In this document: positions 3,001 to 38,904 of the stretch, piece after piece | How the letters are laid out: the number at the start of each line of letters is the position of its first letter | How positions within the stretch are numbered: position 1 is the stretch's first letter | Source: Candidatus Uhrbacteria bacterium RIFCSPHIGHO2_12_FULL_60_25 | GTDB lineage: Bacteria > Patescibacteriota > Patescibacteriia > 2-12-FULL-60-25 | NCBI GenBank assembly: GCA_001791275.1 | Contig: MGEH01000004.1 | Span: forward strand, 1-38,904 | Reading direction: 5' to 3' | Length of the DNA stretch: 38,904 nt | Made by a program: the position numbers and the translations under genes | The notes under the pieces: generated by a model | What the model was told of the DNA's origin: nothing | Database searches by the model: none | What the model saw: only the letters and a program-made list of their open reading frames with translations

Positions 3001-5926
3001 TTCGAATGATTCCGACATCTGCCACGTCGCTCCCGTGCAACTGGATGAGCTGAGCGGCACGCTCCGCCCGCAGTTCGCCGCCTGCGAGCGTCGTCAAGTG
3101 GCTGATGAAACGTGGGAGAAATTTACCGTCGGGAAAAATTTGCGGTGCACGGGAGCCGGGTGCCGTACGGACGGCGACTGCAGCACGTGCAAGGATACGG
3201 ACACCGGCTGTAGGCGGGTGACGGCCGTCCAATGCGGCGCCTTCCGGTGTTCAGACACGAGCGTCCGGGGTCCGAGCAAGGTGAACGATGCGAACGGCGC
3301 CTATACGAGCTACTGCACCTCTGAGAAGGAAGAAAGCCAAGAATGCCCGCTCGAGGTCACGGGCGTGAAGTGCGTCAAGCCAACGGCCAGTCGTGACAAC
3401 GGTGTCCGTGTCGCCGCGGCCGGGAGCGGCGTAACCGGCGGCGGATCCCGTGTCACCGCGGCCCTCCGCATTGCCGTCCAGAACGGTGATGGAGACGAAC
3501 CGGGCGATGGCGGCACCCCATCGGGGTGCGATGTTGGTGATCAAATAGACTGCAGTGGAGACTGTAGCTCCGGCCAGACTGGATTGAAAACATGCCTCTC
3601 GAATAGAACGTATGGACAGTGCGTGTGCAAGGACGCGCCCGCGAGCGGAGGCGCAGAAACAACCTGCCTCCTAGGCACTACCCAAAATTGTAATAATGAG
3701 TGCTCGTCCGGCCAGACTGGAATAAAAACGTGTCGCGCAAACGGAACTTATAGCACATGCGCTTGCACGAGCGGAGGCGCACCGGGCGGTGGAACCCCGG
3801 GCGGCGGCGGTGGTACGGCGTCCAATCTGGGCACCTGCGAAGGTTACCCGTGGGCCGAGTGCACGAAAGACGATGACTGCAGCTTCACGGCGCGAAACGC
3901 CTGGCCTGCGGGTATTGCGAACCAAACTTTTAATTGGACAACATCGAATTACGGGGGTCAGTATTCGGACAAGTTTGCGCGGCCGACAACCCCCGGATCA
4001 AATCCCATGTATTACTACTACACTCCTGGCCCATTTTCGGACTTTAGCAGGGGTTGTTGGGATGGTTTTTGCCCGTTGAAAGACGCGTTCCTCCCGGTAA
4101 AGACTGTACCGGCAGAGAGGACCTTTTTCTTCGCAACACGCGTGCGGTACACGGCCGATGACACGCCCATCAAGGGGGGGTGGGACGACCTTGACCTTCT
4201 GAAGACATTCCCTGGTTTTGTGCCGCTCGTGTTTAGTTACTATCCAGATCCTGGGGACGGTACCAGTTATGGTGACATAAGCTCTAATTTTAGCGCTTTA
4301 GAATTATCCGCACTTGATGGCCCGCCGTATATGAGTTGGTCATGGCGTGGTACCCCAAGCGAAAGAGCGAAGGACTTCATCACGATCCACTACGGTGCAT
4401 GCGAACCGCTCGCTGCCATGTTCCGTGATGGGGCGTCAACGTCATCGAAGGGCCTCGGAACCTGCCGCGGCGGGGCGCGGACAGGCGCCACCTGCTTCGC
4501 GGATAATGATTGCCGGCCGCCCGGGATGAGCGGATCTGATTATGATTCATTCCAGACTCAATCGGAGAATTGGTGTAATCCTGTCACAACCGGCGCGCCG
4601 GATTTTGCAAAGAGCTCGAAGAATAGCGCGTGTTGGCCCTCGGGCGCGAGCGACGCAGATTCAAACTCACCGAAACGTGAGGAAGATACGAGGCTTGATA
4701 ACAACATCTGCACGCACCCGCCGGGGTACTGGCCGAGGCCCAACCTGTGCGCTGATCCGAATGATGAGTACTGCGGCCTGTTCGGCTATGACCTCGGCAA
4801 CGTGAGGAGCAGCGTGGACGACGCCACACCGCTCCCAACGGACGTGACGCCCGGCCTCTACACGCCAAAGTACCTGAATTCAAATACGACAGACGTGAAG
4901 GGGAATGCGTTAGATTACAACTACATTGAGTACTACAACCCCGCGCCGCCGCAGATCGCCGCGCCGGACATGCGCGCGTGCACGGGCGGGCAGTGCCGCG
5001 TGAGCGGATTGGGCACGATCGGACTCGACGGCCTGAACGAGGGCATCGTGAACGGCGGGGCTGGCGGCCACGTGGCCACCCTCCGCTTCTACGCCTGGGC
5101 CTCGCACGAGCAGATGCCGCTCCGCCGCGTGACGGTGGACTGGGGCGACGGCAATCAGACCGAGCTCCCGGACGCCTTCATGAAGAACCGCAAGCCGTAC
5201 TGCCAAACGGAGAAGGAGTGCATGGACGCTCCCGGCCTCACGTGCGAGAGCGACGCGGACTGCCCGCCGGGCGCAGTGCCCTGCGTGGCCTGGGGATCGT
5301 GCGCGGATCGCCCGAACGTTCGCTGTTTCCGGGATACGCAATGCGAGTCTGGCGGCGAACCCGGTACCTGCAACCCGCGCGTGGCCTTCGGGAATACGCA
5401 GGAAGCCTGTGATGAGCAGTACTTCGAGTTCCGCCACGCGTACGCGTGCCTCCCGAACAACAAGCCCGCGTCATGCGACGTGAATACAGAACGTTGTTCA
5501 GGGAACCCTCAAGTCGAATGCACGATCGGGTGTACCCCGGGGGACGGCAACTGCTGTCAGAAGGGCGATACGTGTATCCGAAACCTCGTGCCCAAGGGCG
5601 GGTGCTTCGACAGCGGTTCGAACACCTGCCGGTTCACCCCGCGCGTGCTCATCACGGACAACTGGGGGTGGTGCGCGGGCGAGTGCCGGAATGAGTTCTC
5701 CCAGAGCCGCATCCTCGTTGACGCGCTCGGGGCGGAAATCCGGCACCCGAACGGCGGATGCTTCGACGCCTCACGTATCAAGAGCAACGTGGATTTCAAA
5801 ACAGCCATTGGCGTAAATGAATGCAGCATCAACTACCCTGACACGTCCGGTACCACGGGTAGTTCGCAACGCCCCTGGGTCGTGTTCCCGGGCTCCATGC
5901 AGCTCCTTACGGGCGAGGCGCAGTAA
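2..5926 (+). CDS. giant Cys-rich surface or secreted protein, 5' end outside window
   Basis: The frame is open from the first complete codon (position 2), so the true start lies upstream and about 1,974 residues are visible. The protein is rich in Cys, Gly, Asp, Pro and aromatics. Short C-x-DxDC motifs recur near 3840-3890, 4460-4510 and 5220-5390, as in secreted Cys-knot-like repeats. Two Cys-rich modules are duplicated at 3530-3768 and followed by a Gly/Pro/Thr linker (near 3780-3815). A PKD-like strand with the WGDG signature lies near 5130-5160. No membrane anchor or sorting signal is seen at the C-terminus. GC falls in patches around 3540-3760, 3900-4030 and 4250-4330, suggesting a mosaic gene. 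An extracellular structural or adhesive role is inference; no enzyme motif was recognised. Confidence 0.8.
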   Translation, partial: NKAGEPEGAGIPYCSNYVDRSLATELLKKDVVIDAGTYASRATGFGNKDYSGMTIPDHFQIVDAELAPIGSILAQDPLTRSRYKKDYRLAVPVPYPGPRARPANADEKEGLTISSELKDSLCVIDQTGGIGLLTDTSNNLKKIGGCSAASPCLCWVTVDQSQPPQLAGVGEPITSDNLNVVNLVTRFRQSTQPGLDPVLSRSFPNTQCKAAPQGDSPFGNEFVIEWDDTVTPPKPKRVADGYGSVKFCEYGEECACTYKRVEYGGLSKFYEPLSTNVSNAVCSGGPRDGLPCALDTGIQKSGQPAQTGGQTGGTPPAADSTTPSHSAQVPSTGGVPALPVVGGCGEGGTCTPVLKSTLVRGVTGQCLEYDTARVVAGDQTRLECLTWSPNPVLSGPGDTYHWSPTAGWSPPLSSGRYYCTSPVRPPRDFALKPEALVPNDEDASLLGAIAGVLEGFGIPSIPLSPVIGGYIGAAVTVGEDNEYTQYGAVGFKPNSAGTYAGAIRHFWYHDKFTSDKSCSTIFDPANVFGCDGNEPGASLDGGLAEGTVMGNWCELADDDQEPMRDPSVVRLVTTGFGANRSYAEYAVLLEPWHIAYGVNGGPLPDADAALENSLEDNIASFQFSVPGGKIGCMYYEGFGDAGGMEYDDPDSFGPQDNQWHANFRKYLAEGGGKLDRRNAAIVTEDGTPEGVPVKVKCANPANESDEEKSGCFMKTWELNYRAAGQERFQAFGPDIGRMSLDSLSKTPVYGRCDADHPWFSIRAVFEDTFKEENAKDPEDVTPSKLVGPFQLVGFWVTTCAPGDGPYYIYMNVNVSSADVCRELAETISKDSHESSVFTDRNSSRSGFAIPRSGFSWNSTNIPYGASLATGDAGNEPLFMTGVKQAESNPLHPPVFTFPGQTYFRPEKFPTSNWGMLSNVFARIYRIYGYFPRGTTRDSWACTDPKSPNFTGWCPTDADAEASRRYCGLEAKCVKGATGGGNAFAQKVCNSFSGTNRGLDCSNDSDICHVAPVQLDELSGTLRPQFAACERRQVADETWEKFTVGKNLRCTGAGCRTDGDCSTCKDTDTGCRRVTAVQCGAFRCSDTSVRGPSKVNDANGAYTSYCTSEKEESQECPLEVTGVKCVKPTASRDNGVRVAAAGSGVTGGGSRVTAALRIAVQNGDGDEPGDGGTPSGCDVGDQIDCSGDCSSGQTGLKTCLSNRTYGQCVCKDAPASGGAETTCLLGTTQNCNNECSSGQTGIKTCRANGTYSTCACTSGGAPGGGTPGGGGGTASNLGTCEGYPWAECTKDDDCSFTARNAWPAGIANQTFNWTTSNYGGQYSDKFARPTTPGSNPMYYYYTPGPFSDFSRGCWDGFCPLKDAFLPVKTVPAERTFFFATRVRYTADDTPIKGGWDDLDLLKTFPGFVPLVFSYYPDPGDGTSYGDISSNFSALELSALDGPPYMSWSWRGTPSERAKDFITIHYGACEPLAAMFRDGASTSSKGLGTCRGGARTGATCFADNDCRPPGMSGSDYDSFQTQSENWCNPVTTGAPDFAKSSKNSACWPSGASDADSNSPKREEDTRLDNNICTHPPGYWPRPNLCADPNDEYCGLFGYDLGNVRSSVDDATPLPTDVTPGLYTPKYLNSNTTDVKGNALDYNYIEYYNPAPPQIAAPDMRACTGGQCRVSGLGTIGLDGLNEGIVNGGAGGHVATLRFYAWASHEQMPLRRVTVDWGDGNQTELPDAFMKNRKPYCQTEKECMDAPGLTCESDADCPPGAVPCVAWGSCADRPNVRCFRDTQCESGGEPGTCNPRVAFGNTQEACDEQYFEFRHAYACLPNNKPASCDVNTERCSGNPQVECTIGCTPGDGNCCQKGDTCIRNLVPKGGCFDSGSNTCRFTPRVLITDNWGWCAGECRNEFSQSRILVDALGAEIRHPNGGCFDASRIKSNVDFKTAIGVNECSINYPDTSGTTGSSQRPWVVFPGSMQLLTGEAQ
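3530..3768 (+). repeat. tandem pair of Cys-rich modules inside the giant protein gene
   Basis: Two copies of a roughly 33-residue module encode the shared pattern C-xx-(D/E)CSSGQTG(L/I)KTC-xx-N-xTY-xx-C-x-C. The copies lie about 3530-3632 and 3664-3768. The DNA has diverged more than the protein, so the duplication is old or under selection at protein level. Confidence 0.8.
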
Positions 5927-11645: not shown

Positions 11646-12988
11646 CGCGAGTACGTCTCTTTGATGTCGCATGGCGACTTGCCATCCTCGCTCTCCCCTG
11701 GCAGACGCGGTGGATTTATCAGCAGGGGATGATCGGCGGCTCACTGTGGGAGCAGGGGACGGGGGCCACCTACTTGTCATGGAGCTTTGTGCTGATCGCG
11801 GTTTTTTTAAGTTTTTTGGTCGCGCGGCTTCAGAATCGGGAACCGGGAACATGGAACCGGGAACCGCTTCAGAAGGGCGGTCTCCGGTTCCCGGTTCCCC
11901 GTTCCCGGTTCCCGATCGCGCTCCTCGTCCTTCTCATCGTCTCTTTCTTCACAGCCTCACCCACGGCGACCAGCCTCTGGTGGCTTCACGTCGCAATCCT
12001 CACGTTGTTCGCGTGGACGCTGGTTCGAGCGCATGTCGACGTCACGCCTTGGTTCATCCTATCGCTCGTCCCGCACGCGGCGCTCGGCGTGTGGCAGTAC
12101 GCGGCGCAGGACATCACGGGATCGACCCTGCTAGGGATCGCGACGCAACACCCATGGACGTCCGGCGTCTCGGTCGTCGAACACGGCCTGTACCGCGTGC
12201 TCCGCGCGTACGGCGGGTTCCCGCACCCGAATATCCTCGGCGGGTGGCTTGCCGTCGGGTTGACGCTGCTCCCCGGTCTTGCGCGACGGTCACGGTCGAA
12301 CCCCGAGACGCTCGGTCTCGCGGCGTGCGCCGTCTTGTTTGCAACGGCGCTCGTGCTCACGTTCAGCCGAGGGGCATGGATCGCGGCCATCGTCGGGTTG
12401 ATCCTCGCGGCATGGTCGGTCGTGCGTACATCGCACGCTGATCAAGACCGTCAGGCCACGTGGCTCGTGCTTGCCGCGACGGTCGTCGCGGTCGCCGCCG
12501 GTCTCGCATCGCAGTGGGATCACGTGACGGCGCGCTTTACGCCGACGCTGCGTCTCGAACGCTGGTCCATCGAACAACGGTCGTACGCCGTCGAAGAGGG
12601 GTGGGATGCATTTTTGGCGCGTCCAATCGTCGGCTGGGGGCCTGGGAGCAGTCTCGTCGCCATCACGACAACGCGGCAGGCGAAGTTTTCGTCGCGTCTC
12701 ACGGTTCCACCGGAGCCGCCGCATTACGTACCGCTCGTTGCACTCATTGAGACGGGGATCGCAGGCGTGCTCGCGATGGCGTACCTCGCGTGGCGTTTGC
12801 TCCGTCCGGCTCTCGGTCGGGACCGATGGCGCACGTCTCTGCCCCTGCTTTCCGTGCTCGGTCTTCTCATGCTGACTGACCACTATCTCTGGACGTTGTG
12901 GGCGGGGCAGGCACTCGTGATGCTGGTCGTTGCAATGCTCATCACTCATGTCAGCATGAGCGAGCGTCCCTCCATAGTGTCATCCTGA
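11642..12988 (+). CDS. O-antigen ligase/polymerase-like (Wzy_C) membrane protein
   Basis: 448 residues from the ATG at 11642, which overlaps the previous stop as ATGA; the frame is open further upstream but that part reads as shadow. About ten membrane segments are visible. The family motifs GGFPHPNILGGWLAVGL and LTFSRGAWIAA are present, followed by a large extracytoplasmic loop with a GWGPGS stretch, as in Wzy_C O-antigen ligases or polymerases. These proteins transfer or polymerise lipid-linked glycans at the outer face of the membrane. An inverted heptamer array (11838-11913) is inserted in frame between early membrane segments. The last codons and stop come from a dispersed repeat. Polymerase versus ligase cannot be decided. 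Confidence 0.85.
   Translation: MTRVRLFDVAWRLAILALPWQTRWIYQQGMIGGSLWEQGTGATYLSWSFVLIAVFLSFLVARLQNREPGTWNREPLQKGGLRFPVPRSRFPIALLVLLIVSFFTASPTATSLWWLHVAILTLFAWTLVRAHVDVTPWFILSLVPHAALGVWQYAAQDITGSTLLGIATQHPWTSGVSVVEHGLYRVLRAYGGFPHPNILGGWLAVGLTLLPGLARRSRSNPETLGLAACAVLFATALVLTFSRGAWIAAIVGLILAAWSVVRTSHADQDRQATWLVLAATVVAVAAGLASQWDHVTARFTPTLRLERWSIEQRSYAVEEGWDAFLARPIVGWGPGSSLVAITTTRQAKFSSRLTVPPEPPHYVPLVALIETGIAGVLAMAYLAWRLLRPALGRDRWRTSLPLLSVLGLLMLTDHYLWTLWAGQALVMLVVAMLITHVSMSERPSIVSS
11838..11913. repeat. heptamer array in inverted arrangement inside a membrane protein gene
   Basis: Four near-perfect direct heptamers (GGGAACC and variants, 11838-11865) are followed after 20 nt by four inverted heptamers (GGTTCCC, 11886-11913). 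The array is translated in frame as a NREPGT...RFPVP stretch in a loop between membrane segments. Confidence 0.9.
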
Positions 12989-16047: not shown

Positions 16048-17178
16048 ATGAGCCCGATCATGGACCGCGTGACCCATCTCCGAAGCCGCGTGGACGAAGC
16101 CTGGCGCGTGTTGGATTTGGATGCGGTGAAGCACGAGATCGCGGCACTTGAAGTCGAAGCGTCTTCGCAGGATTTTTGGTCTGATCAGGAACGTGCGCGT
16201 CGCGAGAGTCAGAAGCTCGCGGACCTGAAGGAGCAGTACGACCGTTGGGCCGCGCTCCGCGCATCAACCGTCGAACTCCAGGAACTGCTCGAACTCGTGG
16301 AGGCGGAGAAGGACGTGTCGCTCGCGCGCGACGCCGAGTTGCGCGCTGCGGAGCTCGAGAAGACATACCTGTCACTCGAGTTCTCCATGCTGTTCTCGGG
16401 GGAGCATGATGCGTCGAACGCGGTCCTCGCGATCCACGCGGGCGCGGGCGGCACGGACGCCCAGGACTGGGCCGAGATCCTCATGCGGATGTATTTCCGA
16501 TATGCGGAGAAGAAAGGATGGCGTGTCCGTCTCGTCGATGAGAGCCGCGGGACCGAAGCGGGGATCAAGAGTGCGACCTTCTTCGTGGAAGGCCGGTATG
16601 CGTTCGGACACTTGAAAGGGGAAGCGGGCGTGCACCGCTTGGTCCGCTTGTCGCCATTCAACGCCGACCAGTTGCGGCAGACGTCGTTCGCGCTCGTCGA
16701 GGTCCTCCCGGAGTTTGACGAAACGATCGAGGTTGAGATCAAACCCGAAGACCTGCGGATCGATACGTTCATGAGCGGAGGCAAGGGCGGCCAGTCCGTC
16801 AACACCACGTACTCGGCCGTCCGTATCGTCCACCTGCCCACGAAGATCACCGTCTCCTGTCAGAACGAACGGTCGCAGACGCAGAACAAGGCGACGGCGA
16901 TGAAGATCCTGAAGGCGAAACTCCTGAAACTGAAGGAAGAAGAAGTGTTGAAAGAACGTCAGGAGCTCCGCGGCGAGTACCATAGCGCCGAGTGGGGGAA
17001 CCAGATTCGTTCCTACGTCCTCCAGCCGTACCGCATGGTCAAAGACCACCGGACCGACGTGGAAACATCGGATACGGACGGAGTCTTGAACGGGGATCTG
17101 GATCTTTTCATCGAGGGATATCTTCGGCACCAGGCCGAGGGACAGGATAAAAGGGCGGAAATGAACCGGGACGTGTAG
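16048..17178 (+). CDS. prfB: peptide chain release factor 2
   Basis: 376 residues. The GGQ motif (SGGKGGQSVN, near residue 250) that triggers peptidyl-tRNA hydrolysis and the SPF stop-codon tripeptide (VRLSPFNADQLRQ) of RF2 are both present, so it recognises TGA and TAA. The helical domain 1 occupies the first 110 residues. Unlike many bacterial prfB genes, the reading frame is continuous with no in-frame TGA near codon 25, so the programmed +1 frameshift is absent. A terminator hairpin abuts the start; no clear separate promoter was found. The gene ends in a palindrome. Confidence 0.97.
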   Translation: MSPIMDRVTHLRSRVDEAWRVLDLDAVKHEIAALEVEASSQDFWSDQERARRESQKLADLKEQYDRWAALRASTVELQELLELVEAEKDVSLARDAELRAAELEKTYLSLEFSMLFSGEHDASNAVLAIHAGAGGTDAQDWAEILMRMYFRYAEKKGWRVRLVDESRGTEAGIKSATFFVEGRYAFGHLKGEAGVHRLVRLSPFNADQLRQTSFALVEVLPEFDETIEVEIKPEDLRIDTFMSGGKGGQSVNTTYSAVRIVHLPTKITVSCQNERSQTQNKATAMKILKAKLLKLKEEEVLKERQELRGEYHSAEWGNQIRSYVLQPYRMVKDHRTDVETSDTDGVLNGDLDLFIEGYLRHQAEGQDKRAEMNRDV

Positions 17179-17200
17179 GGGCGACGCGGTGCGTCGCCCC
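17178..17200. repeat. short palindrome abutting the prfB stop
   Basis: GGGGCGACGC (17178-17187), a 3-nt loop and the exact complement (17191-17200). It belongs to the dispersed G(T)GGGCG...CGCCC palindrome family and may act as the prfB terminator. Confidence 0.8.
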
Positions 17201-18298: not shown

Positions 18299-18332
18299 AA
18301 ATACCCCGCCTCTCACGAGTCGGGGTATTTGA
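18299..18332 (+). terminator. terminator after the epimerase gene
   Basis: Stem AAATACCCCG (18299-18308) with CGGGGTATTT (18321-18330). Confidence 0.88.
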
Positions 18333-18379
18333 TATTGTATGCCACGATCAGGGCGAGAGGCGGTCGGTTATAATGGTCG

Positions 18380-18398
18380 GGGCGCACGCAGTGCGCCC
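18380..18398. repeat. short palindrome upstream of tsaC
   Basis: GGGCGCAC, loop GCA, GTGCGCCC; a member of the dispersed palindrome family, followed by CGTAC. Confidence 0.8.
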
Positions 18399-18406
18399 GT
18401 ACGCCG

Positions 18407-19773: not shown

Positions 19774-20625
19774 ATGTCGCCGGCTGAAATCAAAGCAACG
19801 CTGACACGTCTGGGAGTACGCCCGAACAAGCGGCTTGGGCAGCATTTTTTGATAGATCGGGCGGCGCTCCAGGCGATCGTCGAAGCGGCAGACCTGAAGC
19901 GTGGAGACGTCGTTCTTGAAGTCGGCCCGGGTTTGGGCGTGCTGACCGGCGCGTTGTTGGACCATGGCGCACGCGTCACGGCGATCGAGCAGGACAGAAC
20001 GTTCGTGGCATATCTTGAAAAGATCTATCCAGACCTCACGGTCTCGCACGGCGATGCGGCGACCATCCATTGGCACGATATCGTGGGAGTCAAACCGTGG
20101 AAGTTTGTCTCCAATCTCCCATACTCGATCACGTCGCTCGCGTTGCGAAAGGCGCTCTGGGCGCCGCGACCGGCAGACCGCGTGGTCGTCCTCGTCCAGC
20201 GAGAAGTCGCCGAGCGCGCCGTCGCACGAAGCGGCAAGACGTCGCTCTTGAGCCTCATGGTCGCACTCGCGTCGCGGTCCGCGCGCATCATCCGTCGCGT
20301 ACCGGCTGGCGCCTTCTACCCGCCGCCCAAGGTCGAATCCGCCGTACTCGAGATCGTGCCCATGCCATGGTCTGACCGCGAAAAAAGGTGGGGGATTGAT
20401 CCGGAGAAGGTCATGGAGGTCGCGAAACGCGGGTTCGCGCATCCCAGGAAACAACTCGCATCGAACCTCGCGTCTCCTCTCCATGTACTGGCGCAGCGCG
20501 CTGCGCCCGTACAGGGAAAGGAGGCGGTGGTGTCCGTACTCGTATCACTAGGTCTGGATCCAAAAACTCGTGCCGAAGACCTGTCGCCGGACGAGTGGGC
20601 GAAGCTCACGATCGCATTACATTAA
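19774..20625 (+). CDS. rsmA: 16S rRNA dimethyladenosine transferase
   Basis: 283 residues (KsgA). NKRLGQHFLID (18-28) opens the Rossmann methyltransferase, motif I is EVGPGLGVLTG (about 50-60), and the catalytic motif IV is NLPY (about 114). The C-terminal helical domain is complete. The enzyme dimethylates two adjacent adenines in helix 45 of 16S rRNA during small-subunit maturation. The palindrome at 20484-20513 is translated in frame as part of the C-terminal domain (LAQRAAPVQ). The only sequence before the ATG is the heptamer array, with no Shine-Dalgarno sequence. The promoter is unclear; TACACT at 19733-19738 is a possible -10. Confidence 0.97.
   Translation: MSPAEIKATLTRLGVRPNKRLGQHFLIDRAALQAIVEAADLKRGDVVLEVGPGLGVLTGALLDHGARVTAIEQDRTFVAYLEKIYPDLTVSHGDAATIHWHDIVGVKPWKFVSNLPYSITSLALRKALWAPRPADRVVVLVQREVAERAVARSGKTSLLSLMVALASRSARIIRRVPAGAFYPPPKVESAVLEIVPMPWSDREKRWGIDPEKVMEVAKRGFAHPRKQLASNLASPLHVLAQRAAPVQGKEAVVSVLVSLGLDPKTRAEDLSPDEWAKLTIALH
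20484..20513. repeat. palindrome inside ksgA
   Basis: TGTACTGGCGCAGC (20484-20497) pairs with GCTGCGCCCGTACA (20500-20513) with one mismatch. It is nearly the same sequence as the palindrome in valS (35446-35473) and is translated as a similar peptide. Confidence 0.85.
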
Positions 20626-20718: not shown

Positions 20719-22119
20719 TCAGGCCTCCGCGCGCTCACCCCGATTGCCCTTGGACTTCTTCTCCTTCTTGGGCTTGGTGGCGGCGATGGTGTGCATCTCG
20801 CACTCACCGCGCGCCTGCGACTTCTCGGCGCTCTTTTCCGCGCGTGCCTTGCGGTCCGCCTTCTTCTCGGCCGCGCGCGCCTCCTGCTCCTCGCGGGTGA
20901 GCGGCTTGCCGCTCGTCTGCTTGGGCTCGCGGATCGGGCAAGCACGATCCAGGAACTCCATGCCACGCGAGGCGCGATGAGTCGCCTCCTCACGTGCCGG
21001 AAGCCGAGCCTGGCACAGCCGGATGCACTCCTCGCGCTCGTCGGTCGAGAGCGTGGGGTCCTCGTCCACCTGGCACCACACCAGGCCGACCGCAGAGCGA
21101 AGCGCGTCGTCGTGGCTCAGACCGCGTTCCTCTTCGTTCCGCTTGGTGTGCAGGTCGATCTCGCGATCGATCTGCCCCCAGACGGTGAAGGGGACGGGGA
21201 CAGGGGCCGGAGCGGGACCGCGCTTCGGCAGCTTGGCCCGCACCTGGCGCTTCAGCGACTCGACGTCCTCCGGAGAGAGCGTCGTGTAAGTCTCGATCTC
21301 GCGGAACATCCGGCCGCAGGCGCTCGAGAGCGCGCGGTCGGCCGGCATGCCGTTTTCCACGTTGCGCTCGATGAAGAGCGCGACGACGTCGTCGAGGTGC
21401 CCGGGAGTGGTGAGCGGCAACCGTTCGAGACTGCGTCTCTGCGGGCGACGCTCCGCCTGCGGACGCGGGGCGGTCTTCGTGGACTTGGCGCGGGGTGCGG
21501 GTTTCTGCACCACCGTGATCTCGGGTTCGTCCGAGATCTCGAGCACGTCACCCGTCGTCACCTGATCGGCGCCAGCGAGGGCGGCGAGCAGGGATTCGGA
21601 AGTGTGTGCCACGGTCGCCTGATCGGGGCGGACGCAGTCCGCCCTTACGGCGTCGAACGCGGCCCAGAAGGCGACCACGTCCAGGTTCTTCACCTGGTCC
21701 GTGCGCGCCGCGCGGTCCTCGTCCTTCACGCCCTCGTTCTTCGCGAGGACCGTCTCGACGATCCACGTGCGCGCCGCGTCGAGCGCCTGGGGGCGACCCA
21801 TGGCGCGATCCAGATTGCGCTTCACGCCGCCCACGAGGAGCTGCGTGACGCGTTCGGCCGTGGGGTACCTGTGCGTGCGACTGGGGGACTGCGCGGTCTG
21901 CGGACTGAGGTCTGCGACCGTCGGACGGTCTACGCTCGTCTCGGGCGTCGCGGTCTCCGTCGCAACCGGTCGAGACTTGATGTCCGGCCGGAAGCTCGCA
22001 CGCGTGCCGCCGGATGCGGTCACCTCGAGCGAACTGGTCCTCGGCATCTTTGCGACGGCCTTCTGAATGGCCAGCCGCGCGTCGAAGCGGGAACTGATGT
22101 TGCTGGTGATGTTTTCCAA
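20719..22119 (-). CDS. unknown protein with duplicated helical module and Lys/Glu tail
   Basis: 466 residues from a TTG at 22119-22117, chosen because AGAGG lies 8 nt upstream and a consensus promoter ends at 22201; longer starts would lie at or before the transcription start. The protein has a Ser/Thr/Pro-rich N-terminus, a helical region (about 80-190), a basic linker, then two related modules of about 52 residues (near residues 245-300 and 315-370) sharing the pattern RN-x(6)-ADxAL-SA-x(12)-TLS-x-(D/E)-x(12)-LP. The C-terminus is a Lys/Ala/Glu-rich tail that probably forms a coiled coil. No known family was recognised. Confidence 0.75.
   Translation of the reverse strand: MENITSNISSRFDARLAIQKAVAKMPRTSSLEVTASGGTRASFRPDIKSRPVATETATPETSVDRPTVADLSPQTAQSPSRTHRYPTAERVTQLLVGGVKRNLDRAMGRPQALDAARTWIVETVLAKNEGVKDEDRAARTDQVKNLDVVAFWAAFDAVRADCVRPDQATVAHTSESLLAALAGADQVTTGDVLEISDEPEITVVQKPAPRAKSTKTAPRPQAERRPQRRSLERLPLTTPGHLDDVVALFIERNVENGMPADRALSSACGRMFREIETYTTLSPEDVESLKRQVRAKLPKRGPAPAPVPVPFTVWGQIDREIDLHTKRNEEERGLSHDDALRSAVGLVWCQVDEDPTLSTDEREECIRLCQARLPAREEATHRASRGMEFLDRACPIREPKQTSGKPLTREEQEARAAEKKADRKARAEKSAEKSQARGECEMHTIAATKPKKEKKSKGNRGERAEA
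21626..21644. repeat. short palindrome inside the Lys/Glu-tailed gene
   Basis: GGGCGGAC, loop GCA, GTCCGCCC followed by TTACGG; a dispersed-family palindrome in the coding sequence, translated as part of AVRADCVRPDQ. Confidence 0.75.
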
Positions 22120-22200
22120 GGGGCTACCTCTTTCTTGGTTGTCTATCGTCAGGTTGACGATGGTGGTTTGCACACTCAGGGAATCCGAGTATGACCGCAT

Positions 22201-26496: not shown

Positions 26497-26524
26497 AAAC
26501 CCCGCCTGCATGCAGGCGGGGTTT
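26497..26524. terminator. terminator after tRNA-Val
   Basis: A perfect palindrome of two 14-nt arms (AAACCCCGCCTGCA and its complement). Confidence 0.88.
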
Positions 26525-29702: not shown

Positions 29703-32700
29703 ATGTCCATGATCGCGATCAAACATCGGTTCACGAAAGGGTTCAAGAAACTCGCCATCCTCTTCACGACCGCCAGCCTTGCCCTCGGCAACACGCTCGG
29801 CTACGTGGTGATCCCGCGACTCCTCCCAGGGCCGCAGGCGGCGTTGGCCTTTCAAGTAAATTCGAAGCCAGTAGGGATTGCAGCCGGGGAGCACCACAAC
29901 CTCGTACTTTTACAGAATGGCAGCGTTTGGTCCTGGGGCCTGAACGACAAAAAGCAGCTTGGGCTCTCCTTCCCCTACACGAATTTCAGTTTCAACGAAA
30001 GCCCACATCCAATTGATTTACTCACCGTACCCGCTAAGCAAGTGGCAGCAGGGGATCGTTTCAGCATGGCGCTTGCTACAAACGGCACCGTGTATGCGTG
30101 GGGGGAGGATACCTATGGCCAGATCGGTCAAGGGTGGGCAACCTCCTATATCGAGATGCCGCTACAAGTGAAAGATCCAACCGATCCCAGCGGGTTCCTC
30201 ACAAATGTGAAAGCAATTGCTGCAGGTAGCCAGACGGCATACGCATTAAAAAATGACGGTACGGTCTGGGCTTGGGGAAAGGGAACGGCCGGAGAAATCG
30301 GACATGGGTTATCGGGCAATAAGCCCTTTCCGACGCAAGTAATTACTCCATTTGGTTTCGGCCAACCATTGATGAACATCGTACAAATAGAAGCAGGCGG
30401 TTCACATGCACTGGCATTAGATTCACTAGGGTCAGTATGGGCATGGGGGGTAAATAGCGATGGTCAGTTGGGTCGCGGCACAGCTACACCATATGATACT
30501 TATGCAGAACCGGTGCTTAACCCCGCAGGAACTGACTATCTGACTGATGTTGAAAGGATCGGGACCGGAGGGGCCAGTTCATTCGCCATCGCGAGACCCG
30601 GCGGAACCGGAACGTCGATACTCTACGGCTGGGGCCTGAATATACTAGGTCAATTAGGGATGACAGCGAATACACCATTATATGAAGCACTCCCCAAACA
30701 GACGTCCTGCGGTGCGGCATGTAATGCCTGGTCCGTTGACAGTGGGGGAAACCATTCAGCGTTCATTGATGATTATGGGTCCGTTGGGATGGCCGGCTTG
30801 AATTTGTACGGTCAATTTGGCACTGGATCAACCTATGATTTCGGTAAGGGTTATTGGACTTATGGATTTGACAGTTATTACAATAATAACTTCATAAAAG
30901 TTGCTGCAGGGTTGGGCCACTCCCTCCTCCTTGATAATAATGGGAGAGTTTGGACGGCGGGTCGGAATGATGTTGGTCAAGTTGGCGACGGAACAACTGA
31001 CGACAGGCATAGCCCGGTAATCGTCCTCGAGGGTCCAACGGCTCAATACGTCATCCCCCCGGTCATCAGCCTGGGCCAACAGCACGGCGCGATGTTGCAG
31101 GAGGACGGGACCGTGCTCACGTGGGGTGATGGGGGCAGCGGCCAGTTGGGGAACGGAACGCAAATAGACAACCCAACGCCGAACAATGTGATTGATCCGT
31201 CCTCGCCCGGCGGATTACTTAAGAACGTGAAGCATGTAGCGGCAGGAGGCCACCACACCCTTGCGGCGATGAGCGACGGGACGGTACGCGCCTGGGGCCT
31301 GAACGCTGACGGTCAGGTCGGGCTTCCGCTCGCTACCGTCTTCACCACCGCACCCGTGAAAGTGTCTGATCCGAGCGATCCGAGCGGATTCCTCTCGGAC
31401 GTGAAGGCCGTGTACGCGGGATACAACTTCTCGGTAGCCCTGAAGAACAACGGGACGCTCTGGGCGTGGGGGGACAACCAGTCGAGCCAGTTGGGCATCG
31501 GCGTGGTGGGCGGTCCGCCTCACGTGAACCCGACCCAGGTCGTGGGCCTCACGAACGTCGTTGACATGGCAGCCGGAGGCTCCTTCGGCTTGGCACTCAC
31601 CGCCTCCGGCACGGTCTATGCTTGGGGTTCGAACGGGTATGGCGAACTCGGCATCGGGACTTTTGTCGGCCACGAATCGCCTGTCCAGGTGACGTCACTC
31701 TCGCAGATCCGGCAGATCTCGGCAGGGCCCACGCATGCCATTGCCTTGGATAACACAGGCGAGGTCTATGCGTGGGGGCGCAATGCCTACGGCCAGGTGG
31801 GTGACGGCACCCTGGCGAACAGTGATATGCCGGTCTCCGTCGTCGGCCTCATGAATGTCATCTCCGTTGCGGCAGGCGGCAGGCAGTTCAACTCCGGCCA
31901 CTCCTTGGCGCTCCTCGCCGACGGAACGATGAAAGCTTGGGGTCTGAACTCCTCCGGACAGCTTGGAGACGGGACGTTCACAAACCGGCTTACCCCGGTC
32001 CCAGTCGTCGGCCTCACGAACGTGAGGCCGCCCACCTGGGTGGAAGGCGGGCCCGTGTATCTCACGATCGCGGCAGGGGATACGTCCTCCATGGCGCTCA
32101 GTTCGCTCCACGGCTGGGGGGACAACTCGTCCGGACAGCTCGGCAACGGCACCTTCACGTCATCGCCGACCCCGGTAGAGGCGATCCTCCCACCGCCTCC
32201 GGCAGATACGACTGCACCGGAGATCTCCGAGGTGACCCTCGAGGCCGCGTCAACGTCAACCGCACGGATCGCGTGGCTCACGTCGGAACCGGCTTCATCA
32301 GTCGTTGACTACGGACTCACGGCCGCATACGGATCGACCGCGAACGGCTCAACAGACGTCTTTGGCCATCGCATGACCCTCACGGGCCTCTCCCCCAACA
32401 CCACGTACCACTACCGCGTGACATCGGCAGACGCGGCGAACAACGCGGCGCAATCGGAAGACCTCACCTTCACGACTGCCCCCCTCCCGTCCTCCTGCGT
32501 GGACCAGGACCAGGATGGCTTCGGCGCGAACGGGACCGACACGAGCACCTGTCCGGCCGGGCCAACTCCGGACTGCGACGACCTGAATCCCGCGAACAAC
32601 TCGGCCGCGCCTCCGGTCATCGATCCCTTGGCGGACGTTGACCCGACGGCTGTCATCGGCAATGGCGCCCAGATCGCCGCAGGAGCGCAGGTGAAAAAGA

Positions 32701-33077
32701 ACGTCGTGATCGGCCAGGGGGTGATCCTCGGCATCGACACGAGCGTGGATAAGGACTCGCAGGTGCTTGCCTGCTCCGTCCTGAAGACGGACGCGAAGCT
32801 CATGAAGCACGTGACCTTCGGCCCATCCTCCGTCCTCGGTCTGGACTCGAGCGTGGACAAGGATGCGGTCATCGGATCGTACGTCACGATCGGCGACCAG
32901 ACGGACATCGACAAGACCACGCACGTCGGTGACGATACGACGATCGGAAACAACACCCTCATCGACAAGGAGGTGACGATCGGCCAGAACGTCACGATCG
33001 GCAACGACGTGGAGGTCAAGAAGAACGCGGTCATTCCGAATGGGGCGGTGATCCCGGATGGAGCGACCGTCAACTAA
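29703..33077 (+). CDS. secreted protein: two RCC1 propellers, Fn3, Ca-binding segment and hexapeptide helix
   Basis: 1,124 residues. A signal peptide (basic, then AILFTTASLALGNTLGYV) opens the protein. Fourteen RCC1-type repeats follow, each near AAG-x-x-H-x-(L/F)AL-x-x-x-G-x-V-x-(A/S)WG-x-N-x-x-GQLG-x-G: seven in residues 55-440 and seven in 446-832, so two full seven-bladed propellers. An Fn3 domain (about 834-925), a DQDQDGFG/DCDDLNP calcium-binding stretch (about 932-962) and a left-handed beta-helix of VIG/VTIG-type hexapeptides (about 977-1124) end it. The first propeller is clearly more AT-rich than the rest. A cell-surface binding role is inferred. Confidence 0.9.
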   Translation: MSMIAIKHRFTKGFKKLAILFTTASLALGNTLGYVVIPRLLPGPQAALAFQVNSKPVGIAAGEHHNLVLLQNGSVWSWGLNDKKQLGLSFPYTNFSFNESPHPIDLLTVPAKQVAAGDRFSMALATNGTVYAWGEDTYGQIGQGWATSYIEMPLQVKDPTDPSGFLTNVKAIAAGSQTAYALKNDGTVWAWGKGTAGEIGHGLSGNKPFPTQVITPFGFGQPLMNIVQIEAGGSHALALDSLGSVWAWGVNSDGQLGRGTATPYDTYAEPVLNPAGTDYLTDVERIGTGGASSFAIARPGGTGTSILYGWGLNILGQLGMTANTPLYEALPKQTSCGAACNAWSVDSGGNHSAFIDDYGSVGMAGLNLYGQFGTGSTYDFGKGYWTYGFDSYYNNNFIKVAAGLGHSLLLDNNGRVWTAGRNDVGQVGDGTTDDRHSPVIVLEGPTAQYVIPPVISLGQQHGAMLQEDGTVLTWGDGGSGQLGNGTQIDNPTPNNVIDPSSPGGLLKNVKHVAAGGHHTLAAMSDGTVRAWGLNADGQVGLPLATVFTTAPVKVSDPSDPSGFLSDVKAVYAGYNFSVALKNNGTLWAWGDNQSSQLGIGVVGGPPHVNPTQVVGLTNVVDMAAGGSFGLALTASGTVYAWGSNGYGELGIGTFVGHESPVQVTSLSQIRQISAGPTHAIALDNTGEVYAWGRNAYGQVGDGTLANSDMPVSVVGLMNVISVAAGGRQFNSGHSLALLADGTMKAWGLNSSGQLGDGTFTNRLTPVPVVGLTNVRPPTWVEGGPVYLTIAAGDTSSMALSSLHGWGDNSSGQLGNGTFTSSPTPVEAILPPPPADTTAPEISEVTLEAASTSTARIAWLTSEPASSVVDYGLTAAYGSTANGSTDVFGHRMTLTGLSPNTTYHYRVTSADAANNAAQSEDLTFTTAPLPSSCVDQDQDGFGANGTDTSTCPAGPTPDCDDLNPANNSAAPPVIDPLADVDPTAVIGNGAQIAAGAQVKKNVVIGQGVILGIDTSVDKDSQVLACSVLKTDAKLMKHVTFGPSSVLGLDSSVDKDAVIGSYVTIGDQTDIDKTTHVGDDTTIGNNTLIDKEVTIGQNVTIGNDVEVKKNAVIPNGAVIPDGATVN

Positions 33078-33193: not shown

Positions 33194-33224
33194 TGTACGG
33201 GCGACGCGCTGCGTCGCCCGTACA
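33194..33224. repeat. perfect palindrome in the valS leader
   Basis: TGTACGGGCGACGC (33194-33207), loop of 3, and its exact complement (33211-33224). It lies 10 nt before the valS ATG. Confidence 0.9.
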
Positions 33225-33234
33225 TGTCAGCTCC

Positions 33235-35931
33235 ATGTCACGTTTTCAGGACCTGCCCAAGGCCTACGACGCGTCTTCCGTGGAAGACGCGATTTACGCG
33301 TCGTGGGAGATGTCGAACGCCTTTAACCCTGACAAGCTGCCCGGCACGCGTCCCGACCCGTACTGCATCGTGATGCCTCCACCGAATCGCACGGGGACGC
33401 TGCACGTGGGCCACGCAGTCATGCTCGCGATCGAGGACTTGATGATCCGGTTCCAGCGCATGCGTGGGAAGAAGGCGCTCTGGATTCCCGGCACGGACCA
33501 CGCGGCCATCGCCACACAGGTGAAAGTCGAGCAGCTCTTGCGCGAGCAGGGGATGAAGGACCCGAAGAAGGAACTTGGGCGGGAGAAATTCCTCGAGAAG
33601 GTCATCTCGTTCGCCGAAGAGTCTGCCGCGACGATCCGGAACCAGGTGCGAAAGATGGGGTCGTCGTGCGACTGGACGCGCGAGAAGTACACGCTGGACG
33701 CGGAACGCAACCGCGCCGTCGTCGAGATGTTCCGGCGCATGCACGAGGACGGGCTCATCGAGCGCGGAGATCGGATCGTAAACTGGGATCCCCAATCGAA
33801 GACGGTCGTTTCAGACGATGAAATTGTGTGGATCGATGAGAAGGCGCCGTTCTATACGTTCAAGTATGGTCCGTTTGAAATTGGGACGTCTCGTCCGGAA
33901 ACGAAGTTCGGAGATAAGTACGTCGTCATGCATCCGGAGGATCCGCGGTACGCGTCCTTCGAGCAGGGTCAGAAGATCGAGCTCGAGTGGATCAATGGTC
34001 CGATCACGGCGACAGTCGTCAAGGATTCCGTCATCGATCGTGAGTTCGGGACCGGCGTCATGACGATTACGCCCTGGCACGACAACGTGGACTACGAGCT
34101 GGCGGAACGGCATGCGCTCGACAGGGAGCAGATCATCGACTTGGAGGGCAGGTTGCTCCCGATCGCCGGAGAGTTCGCGGGCCTTCCGATCCTCGAAGCG
34201 CGCAAGAAGGTCGTGGAGAAGCTGAAACAGAAGGGGCTGCTCGTGAACGTCGACGAAAACTATGCGCACCGCATTGCCACGTCCCAGCGTGGAGGCGGGT
34301 TGATCGAGCCGCAGATATTGCGTCAGTGGTTCGTGCGCGTGACGAAGCCGTTCGCGCTCCGCCAGGACACGCTCGGGAAGTGGAAGAAGGGCGATCAGGT
34401 CACGTTGAAAGAGCTCATGCGCCATGCGGTCGAATCTGGGCAGACTAAGATTGTCCCGGAACGTTTCACGAAAATCTATTATCACTGGATCGACAACTTG
34501 CGCGACTGGTGCATCTCGCGGCAGATCTGGTTCGGGCATCGGATACCGGTGTGGTACCGGGAACCGGGAACCGGGAACGGGGAACCGGGAACGGGGAACC
34601 GGGAACCGGGAACCGGGAACGAGGAACCGGAAATCCGGGTCTCGGACGTGTCGCCGGGTGCGGGGTGGGATCAAGATCCTGACACGCTCGACACGTGGTT
34701 CTCATCAGGGCTGTGGACGTTTTCGACGCTTGGGTGGCCTGACGAGAAGGAATGGAATAAGAACCGCGCCTACCACCCCACGGCCGTCCTCGAAACGGGG
34801 TATGACATCCTATTTTTTTGGATTGCGCGCATGGTGCTCATGAGCGCGTACGCGCTTGGTGAGGTCCCATTCCGCGACGCCTACCTCCACGGACTCATTC
34901 GCGACGAACAGGGGCGAAAGATGTCCAAGTCCCTCGGGAACGTCATTGATCCTTTGGACGTGATCCCGAAGTACGGCACAGACGCCGTCCGCCTGTCCCT
35001 CGTGATGGGCACCACACCCGGGCAGGACGTGCGTCTCTCCGAGGCGAAGATCGAGGGGTTCAGGAATTTTACGAACAAGCTGTGGAATATTTCGAGGTTT
35101 ATATTGATGCAGATCGGGGAACCGGGAACCGGGAACCGGGAACCGAAAACGCTGGCGGATCGTTGGATCTTGTCGCGCCTCGACGAAGTCGCGGCGAGCG
35201 TCACGTCTAAAATCGAGAAATACGAGTTCTCGTCCGCCGGAGAGGAACTGCGCGACTACACGTGGGGCTACCTGGCGGACTGGTACCTCGAGATCGCGAA
35301 GGTCGAGAAGGGGAAGGACGCGATCCTCGCCCATCTTCTGCGTCATGTCCTTATCCTCTGGCATCCGTTCATGCCGTTTGTGACGGAGCACATTTGGAAG
35401 ACAGCCGGATTTGATGGGCAATTGATCGTCGCGTCTTGGTCACAAGTACGGGCGCAGCATGCTGCGCCCGTACAGGAATTCGAAGTATTGCGTCAGCTTG
35501 TGACGGACATGCGCCGTCTCCGCGCGGATCAGGGCGTCGAGGCGGCGAAGCAGGTCGAGATCGCGCTTGTCGCGTCTTCTGACGTGAAAAAGCTCGTCGA
35601 AGAGAACATGGAGGTCGTGAAGCATCTGGCGCGCGCGGCATCCGTCGCGTTCGTCGGCGCGGTCGCGTTCGGGTGGGCCACGACGGTCTCGGGGAGCGCT
35701 ACGATCGGACTGAATGTCGCAGGATCCGTCGACATCGTAAAAGAGAAGGACAAGGCACAGAAAGAGATCGATGCAACGCGCAAATACGTCGAGAGTTTGA
35801 ACGTCCAGCTTGCGAACGGGGAGTTCACGTCCAAGGCTCCGGCGTCGGTTATCTCCGGGATGAAGCTGAAATTGTCCGAAGCGGAGATGAAGTTGAAGAC
35901 GCTGGAAGAGAAGGTGAAAAGGTTGGGGTGA
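33235..35931 (+). CDS. valS: valyl-tRNA synthetase
   Basis: 898 residues from the ATG at 33235; the longer frame would translate the leader palindrome. The class I signature is PPPNRTGTLHVGHAV (about 48-62) and the KMSKS loop is KMSKSLGNVIDP (about 562). The CP1 editing domain with TPWHDNVDYELAERH and the GHRIPVWY and DTWFSSGLW motifs are intact, and the C-terminal coiled coil is complete. It charges tRNA-Val and edits mischarged Thr. Three repeat elements are translated in frame: heptamer arrays at 34559-34628 and 35117-35144, and a palindrome at 35446-35473. Each falls where family members vary in length, so the enzyme is probably active. Confidence 0.98.
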   Translation: MSRFQDLPKAYDASSVEDAIYASWEMSNAFNPDKLPGTRPDPYCIVMPPPNRTGTLHVGHAVMLAIEDLMIRFQRMRGKKALWIPGTDHAAIATQVKVEQLLREQGMKDPKKELGREKFLEKVISFAEESAATIRNQVRKMGSSCDWTREKYTLDAERNRAVVEMFRRMHEDGLIERGDRIVNWDPQSKTVVSDDEIVWIDEKAPFYTFKYGPFEIGTSRPETKFGDKYVVMHPEDPRYASFEQGQKIELEWINGPITATVVKDSVIDREFGTGVMTITPWHDNVDYELAERHALDREQIIDLEGRLLPIAGEFAGLPILEARKKVVEKLKQKGLLVNVDENYAHRIATSQRGGGLIEPQILRQWFVRVTKPFALRQDTLGKWKKGDQVTLKELMRHAVESGQTKIVPERFTKIYYHWIDNLRDWCISRQIWFGHRIPVWYREPGTGNGEPGTGNREPGTGNEEPEIRVSDVSPGAGWDQDPDTLDTWFSSGLWTFSTLGWPDEKEWNKNRAYHPTAVLETGYDILFFWIARMVLMSAYALGEVPFRDAYLHGLIRDEQGRKMSKSLGNVIDPLDVIPKYGTDAVRLSLVMGTTPGQDVRLSEAKIEGFRNFTNKLWNISRFILMQIGEPGTGNREPKTLADRWILSRLDEVAASVTSKIEKYEFSSAGEELRDYTWGYLADWYLEIAKVEKGKDAILAHLLRHVLILWHPFMPFVTEHIWKTAGFDGQLIVASWSQVRAQHAAPVQEFEVLRQLVTDMRRLRADQGVEAAKQVEIALVASSDVKKLVEENMEVVKHLARAASVAFVGAVAFGWATTVSGSATIGLNVAGSVDIVKEKDKAQKEIDATRKYVESLNVQLANGEFTSKAPASVISGMKLKLSEAEMKLKTLEEKVKRLG
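34559..34628 (+). repeat. ten tandem heptamers inside valS
   Basis: Nine perfect units of GGGAACC or GGGAACG and one AGGAACC run without interruption. They encode repeated REPGTGN/GEPGTGN heptapeptides between the GHRIPVWY motif and the DTWFSS motif. Confidence 0.97.
35117..35144 (+). repeat. four tandem heptamers inside valS
   Basis: Four perfect GGGAACC units encode GEPGTGNREP at the junction of the catalytic and anticodon-binding domains, just before LADRWILSRL. Confidence 0.95.
35446..35473. repeat. perfect 28-nt palindrome inside valS
   Basis: GTACGGGCGCAGCA (35446-35459) is followed directly by its exact complement (35460-35473). It is translated as VRAQHAAPVQ in the anticodon-binding domain. 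Confidence 0.95.
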
Positions 35932-37531: not shown

Positions 37532-37556
37532 GGAGAGGACGCTCTGCGTCCTCTCC
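37532..37556. repeat. palindrome between cluster genes
   Basis: GGAGAGGACGC (37532-37542), loop of 3, GCGTCCTCTCC (37546-37556). It fills the gap between the genes at 37296 and 37630. Confidence 0.85.
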
Positions 37557-37629
37557 TCTAACCGGCTCGTGAGAATGGTCTCGCGGGTCGTGAGAGGAAA
37601 CGGACATTCGACAAGAAAGCGGAGGAGTC

Positions 37630-38712: not shown

Positions 38713-38904
38713 TGCGTTCGTGAAAATTTCGTTGCCAGAATGGATCCCCTGATGATTGACGCAGCATATTTATCTTCTGAGCAGAAAATGTTTTAAACGC
38801 GCGGATCGTCTCCGACAAACCTTGTCGTTTCCCCGTAGGGGCGGGTTTTAAACCCGCCCCGTCGGTGATATGCGTGGGGTGTAATCCTGTCGGGGCGGGG
38901 TTTA
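38612..38904 (-). CDS. REP-associated tyrosine transposase (RAYT), C-terminal part
   Basis: The frame is open to the window edge, so about 97 C-terminal residues are seen. SETIRAFKTFSAQKINMLR, FWQRNFHERII and RDYIRLNPLRW are the characteristic C-terminal signatures of RAYT (TnpA_REP) proteins, which process REP palindromes as single-stranded DNA. The catalytic His pair would lie upstream, outside the window. Just before them the frame reads through the palindrome at 38838-38860 (GLKPAPTGKR), so the gene carries a repeat in its own coding sequence. Whether the full gene is intact cannot be judged. Confidence 0.85.
   Translation of the reverse strand, partial: NPAPTGLHPTHITDGAGLKPAPTGKRQGLSETIRAFKTFSAQKINMLRQSSGDPFWQRNFHERIIWTDEGLASTRDYIRLNPLRWHVDPENPNRPE
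38838..38860. repeat. palindrome inside the RAYT gene
   Basis: GGGGCGGGTTT (38838-38848), one base, AAACCCGCCCC (38850-38860), preceded by GTA. A second partial copy begins at about 38890 and is cut by the window end. Confidence 0.9.

Follow-up and report, generated by a model that had tools for sequence, protein, structure and literature searches.

In-frame palindromes of apparent GTAG-tagged REP type in valS, ksgA and other genes of a small Uhrbacteria genome

The valine--tRNA ligase gene (valS) of this Candidatus Uhrbacteria genome contains a perfect 28-nt palindrome (GTACGGGCGCAGCATGCTGCGCCCGTAC, 35446–35473) with GTAC on either end, and a palindrome that differs from it by 3 mismatches lies within ksgA (20485–20512), which raises the question of what these elements are and how they can persist inside such genes. 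We examined them in the window, meaning the whole analysed stretch of 38,904 nt (38.9 kb from the start of contig C4, G+C ∼60%), and across the genome to which it belongs (G000 where genomes are compared; 0.98 Mb, 37 contigs, 95% complete). As an earlier note on this DNA had claimed, the two near-identical palindromes encode similar peptides, VRAQHAAPVQ and VLAQRAAPVQ, and the palindrome found no match in 100 dinucleotide shuffles. Our explanation as a whole, to which we give a probability of roughly 0.8, is that the elements are GTAG- or GTAC-footed REPs that spread in a RAYT-like manner and survive within genes by passing a filter on length, frame and loop.

Related palindromes had been proposed elsewhere in the window. 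Those at 17178, 18380, 21626, 33194 and 38838 do have the GGGCG/CGCCC core of the family, while the one at 37532 (GGAGAGGACGCTCTGCGTCCTCTCC) was rejected as a member, being without this core. The 33194 copy belongs to the valS 5′ leader and is not coding, the 17178 copy overlaps the TAG of a release-factor gene, and the 21626 copy lies inside an ORF without known family (no Pfam match for the minus-strand ORF 20719–22173). Taken mechanically, the ORF begins at TTG 33154, which would make the 33194 palindrome part of the valS coding sequence; this start was rejected in favor of the ATG at 33235, the one set by the codon model. The features are collected in Table 1.

Table 1. Repeat copies and their host genes in the window
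Feature	Position	Strand	Remarks
REP copy GTAGGGGCGACGCGGTGCGTCGCCC	17175..17199	+	the release-factor gene upstream (16048–17178) takes its stop codon from the TAG of this copy
REP copy GTACGGGCGCACTGCGTGCGCCC (minus-strand reading)	18376..18402	-	intergenic
ksgA (16S rRNA dimethyladenosine transferase), host gene	19774..20625	+	Pfam RrnaAD 7e-38
REP copy in ksgA	20485..20514	+	one mispaired position; in-frame VLAQRAAPVQ
REP copy in ORF 20719–22173 (minus)	21622..21648	-	read as VRADCVRPDQ
Symmetric REP copy, valS 5′ leader	33194..33224	+	core 21 nt; ends 10 nt 5′ of ATG
valS (valine--tRNA ligase), host gene	33235..35931	+	Pfam tRNA-synt_1 1e-121, Anticodon_1; PDB 1gax 4e-180
REP copy in valS	35446..35475	+	28-nt palindrome + AG = 30 nt; in-frame VRAQHAAPVQ
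REP copy GTAGGGGCGGGTTTTAAACCCGCCC	38835..38859	+	intergenic

The window holds other repeats and hairpins besides. The arms GAGAGGAC/GTCCTCTC of the 37532–37557 palindrome resemble the outer boxes of TIGR-like repeats on contig C37, without their GTCGAAAGACT center. Hairpins at 18299–18330, directly 3′ of a gene end, and at 26497–26524, after an apparent tRNA end, are probably ordinary transcription terminators. Heptanucleotide repeats of GGGAACC/GGTTCCC form a second repeat class in valS, with two tracts there that translate as REPGTGNGEPGTGNREPGTGNEEPE and GEPGTGNREP, and occur also at 11833–11916. Positions 29703–33077 encode a 1124-residue protein with ∼12 RCC1 repeats, a fibronectin-like domain and hexapeptide repeats.

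Genome-wide, the pattern GGGCG-N8-14-CGCCC-N-TAC gave 74 strand matches versus 0 for the reversed control, and the stretches sampled around these matches hold ∼61 copies with inner cores of 19, 20, 21 or 22 nt, mismatches allowed, bearing out the dispersed repeat family that the earlier note had postulated. The family is built of a GTA[G/C] foot, an outer stem (GGGCG/CGCCC) that is constant and an inner stem that is self-complementary but variable; the inner stems differ yet stay paired (CACTGCGTG, ACGCGGTGCGT, ACCCGGTGGGT, CAGCATGCTG and others). On one side the feet read GTA[G/C/A/T] and on the other mostly CGAN or GTAC; the GTAG-footed form GTAGGGGCG...CGCCC accounts for 35 strand matches, many other copies have GTAC, and many symmetric copies carry GTAC at both sides instead of GTAG. 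Eleven neighbor pairs lie no more than 130 nt apart, mostly in opposite orientation, and many copies are single. Four gene ends adjoin a REP foot, among which the release-factor TAG stop was checked in the sequence.

By these features the family appears to be of the GTAG-tagged REP type, a known kind (PMC3733652). It shares with that type a palindrome of 20–40 nt, the GTA[G] foot, inverted dimers, a mostly intergenic location, TAG stops made by the foot and copies read in frame within tRNA ligase genes and truB; it differs in its GGGCG/CGCCC outer stem, its species-specific inner stems and its many symmetric GTAC feet, in that no RAYT was found in G000, and in that several unrelated repeat families share the loops in related species. 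The same paper (2013) describes intragenic GTAG REPs, including those in tRNA ligases and truB, as well as TAG stops given by REP feet, holds that loops may make intragenic REPs neutral, and records species without REPtrons, an associated RAYT being usual but not required. It is quite improbable, in our estimate, that the palindromes are instead an RPE/CGTC-type or other untagged family unrelated to GTAG REPs and RAYT. Such a family could account for the missing transposase match in G000, and the Rickettsia RPEs (PMC3733652) are likewise palindromic repeats found in frame in essential genes of a small genome, but RPE-4/6 belong to the CGTC super-family and RPE-1 is longer, whereas the G000 unit is ∼30 nt with a GTAG/GTAC foot, and membership was rejected since no CGTC end occurs among the feet listed above. 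The foot itself, the close inverted pairs, the foot-derived stop codons and the REPs that a congener (G002, see below) has within its Y1_Tnp gene and next to it all argue against this alternative.

Genes are mostly avoided: 14 of the 61 copies lie inside genes and 47 outside gene interiors, though ∼86% of the DNA is coding (86% of a sampled 262 kb, by a codon model trained on G000). Probable leader copies, close to the start of a PRPP-synthetase-like gene (C27:12378) and to that of C7:20701, do not figure among the coding copies. The earlier statement that the family tolerates coding sites is thus right in that in-frame copies exist in genes, but coding sites are strongly depleted. The hosts valS, ksgA, pheT (two copies), gyrB, queA, leuS and truB are well identified by NCBIfam and Pfam. 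The others are a lipoprotein of glucose/sorbosone dehydrogenase-like type, a glycosyltransferase that holds a REP pair, a membrane protein similar to the O-antigen ligase/IctB group, an ORF of no known family and a TIGR-Tas/IS110-like protein.

The last of these hosts lies in a setting of its own. ORF 3745–5316 of locus L224 (G000:C37:12000-20300) is TIGR-Tas-like (NF052498, 89 bits against a cut-off of 100; also IS110 Transposase_20), with a REP in frame near the C-terminus of the protein, and is flanked on both sides (2808–3703 and 5392–5838) by GAGAGGACT-N9-TGTCGAAAGACT-N9-GTGTCCTCTC repeats that look like a dual-spacer TIGR array.

The copies inside genes are biased in both frame and length. 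Ten of the 14 share one reading frame, V-x-A...P-x-Q (p = 0.004 against a conservative 1/3), giving VGAHCVRPEQ in leuS, VRADCVRPDQ in truB, VGADPRVRPEQ in gyrB, and VGATHASPVQ and VRAQRATPVQ in pheT; in the sense orientation, one of the alternative frames would read TAG out of the GTAG foot. Counted with its feet and the trailing CAG or AG of the coding copies, a core of 19 or 20 nt makes 30 nt and one of 22 nt makes 33 nt, while a 21-nt core gives a total not divisible by three. Cores of 19, 20 or 22 nt are found in 13 of 14 gene-internal copies versus 22 of 47 elsewhere (Fisher p = 0.002), and among symmetric GTAC...GTAC copies the 20-nt core is coding in 3 of 3 cases and the 21-nt core in 0 of 9. 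The queA copy is the sole length exception among the gene-internal copies and is read in a different frame. Such a pattern is expected if purifying selection acts on copies that land at random. A copy landing in a gene would survive only if it added a multiple of three bases in a frame that avoids the GTAG-derived stop, and only in a permissive, probably surface, loop, where the element may then act as a neutral V-x-A...P-x-Q linker and the surrounding loop may be trimmed.

We aligned the valS, ksgA, pheT, gyrB, truB, leuS and queA proteins with up to 29 relatives, which in our collection mostly have genomes of 0.5–1.6 Mb. The G000 peptides are absent from all of these aligned relatives, with a similar peptide, VGTQHTAPVQ, in the same loop of pheT of G003. 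The counter-case named in the earlier note, that relatives carry the peptide as ancestral conserved sequence, is therefore not what the alignments contain. Chance palindromes or conserved ancestral protein sequence could explain why the 30-nt element equals the loop length in some proteins, but with no match in shuffles or in the reversed-pattern control, and with relatives lacking such a peptide at these sites except in pheT of G003 and G014, we give that explanation next to no weight.

The same note had called for empty sites in close relatives. No empty site was found at the DNA level, the nearest relatives being only ∼62–71% identical in these proteins, and at the protein level the comparison is divided, with a longer loop than in relatives in ksgA and queA and an unchanged one in valS, truB and one pheT loop. 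Between anchors, ksgA has 27 residues in G000 versus a median of 13.5 in 28 REP-free relatives and queA has 18 versus a REP-free median of 9.5, a net gain of ∼9–14 residues, and KsgA of T. thermophilus (3fut) has ten residues fewer at the REP site. The cleanest empty site is offered by a relative: elsewhere in ksgA, G009 has a 10-residue REP peptide (VGAGLKPAPT) and 13 residues versus a REP-free median of 3. In contrast, the REP loop has 12 residues versus a REP-free median of 14 in valS, where the alignment with T. thermophilus ValRS (1gax) is gapless, and 12 versus 13 in truB; the two pheT loops have 17 versus 17 and 10 versus 8. In valS, truB and the first pheT loop, then, a variable loop is taken up by the repeat and is no longer for it. 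Only some sites show insertion, and the absent length gain elsewhere is not explained by simple insertion alone.

These unchanged lengths are the evidence for overwriting, in which a repeat is copied onto an existing loop without added length, by gene conversion or because a single-stranded copy anneals at short homologies, or in which every insertion is followed by loss of the old loop. In valS, truB and one pheT loop the length matches that of relatives or of 1gax, and single truB REPs (G000, G020) add nothing, while truB pairs (G008, G009) add ∼15 residues. We nevertheless regard overwriting as a rather unlikely general account, given the gains of ∼5–16 residues in ksgA (at two sites), queA and another pheT loop, and given that the loops of relatives are variable, so that ancestral length cannot be read from them.

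The same loops hold other repeats in other species. The valS loop of G011 and G015 reads VIPAEAGIQ or VIPVEAGIQ and is encoded by a TCATTCC...GGAATCC repeat, which is dispersed in G015 and has few copies in G011. The ksgA loop of G030 contains an inverted GTAGGGGCG pair, the truB loop is occupied by REPs, single or paired, in G020, G008 and G009 and by a TCATTCC-type repeat in G021, and one pheT loop has REPs in G014, G008 and G020. Among the REPs of these relatives the V-x-A frame again prevails, with 12 of 15 sense readings, some symmetric copies being counted on both strands. Species have the outer stem in common but not the inner stem, which is AGGCC/GGGCC in G001, CGGCATGCCG in G003 and AGGCATGCCT in G027, and the leuS and truB copies of G000 bear the inner-stem dialect of G000 itself, a sign that the spread postdates the separation of the species. 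Of 380 sampled genomes of the class, 66 contain GTAGGGGCG...CGCCC repeats. Palindromes of the form GTACGGGCG...CGCCCGTAC with many inner stems also occur, among the matches listed and with chance matches mixed in, in Chloroflexi, Cyanobacteria, Acidobacteria, Parcubacteria and others. It is possible, though we lean against it, that a set of loops in the core translation and topology enzymes of these related small-genome bacteria is a shared landing ground, which several unrelated palindrome families repeatedly enter and overwrite at constant length, the loop sequence being supplied largely by repeats.

This turnover between species also bears on whether the hairpins are kept for a role in mRNA or DNA, such as pausing, RNA stability or gyrase or nucleoid binding, with the peptide as a by-product. 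REP functions in the literature include mRNA stabilization and gyrase targeting (PMC3733652), and the valS copy keeps perfect pairing although it is coding. Copies are, however, depleted in genes, a given site holds different ones in different species, and most relatives lack them; we judge such a role improbable.

As to how the repeats were mobilized, a Y1 transposase (Y1_Tnp) has no match in G000 at its 95% completeness. This missing match, together with the many GTAC rather than GTAG feet, counts against the REP/RAYT explanation, and the earlier description of the family as active, right as to the repeat family itself, is not borne out; its current activity is unproven. Among 57 genomes searched in the comparison with relatives, 25 have a Y1_Tnp match. 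In G002, of the same genus, a RAYT-like Y1_Tnp gene (G002:C21:41034-41474, locus L335; a 190-residue ORF) has one GTAGGGGCG REP adjoining its end and a second in frame within it, as SAVGAGLRPAPT, and REPs adjoin the Y1_Tnp match of G008 as well. We infer that the mobilizing agent in G000 was a RAYT/TnpA-REP-like Y1 nuclease, which would have spread the hairpins, probably via single-stranded DNA, and would since have been lost from G000 or be missing from the assembly. With the REPINs and BIMEs that go with a RAYT (PMC3116915, PMC2817692) the present family shares inverted REP pairs and a Y1 transposase gene beside REPs (the latter in G002 and G008), while the many single copies and the transposase not found in G000 set it apart. 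We found no relevant paper on REPINs in Patescibacteria.

GTAG REPs inside genes have been known since 2013; what is added here is the filter on length and frame, the range of essential genes that serve as hosts within a single small genome, and the finding that related species repeatedly have different repeats in the same loops, in some cases with no net length gain. In-frame REPs are thereby extended to another small-genome lineage, and one loop of the same essential enzyme with a different repeat in each species amounts to a natural experiment. It makes testable how REPs enter genes, whether by insertion or by overwriting, and what share of the loop sequence of conserved proteins mobile hairpins have supplied. 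A warning follows as well: such peptides derive from repeats and should not be taken for conserved motifs.
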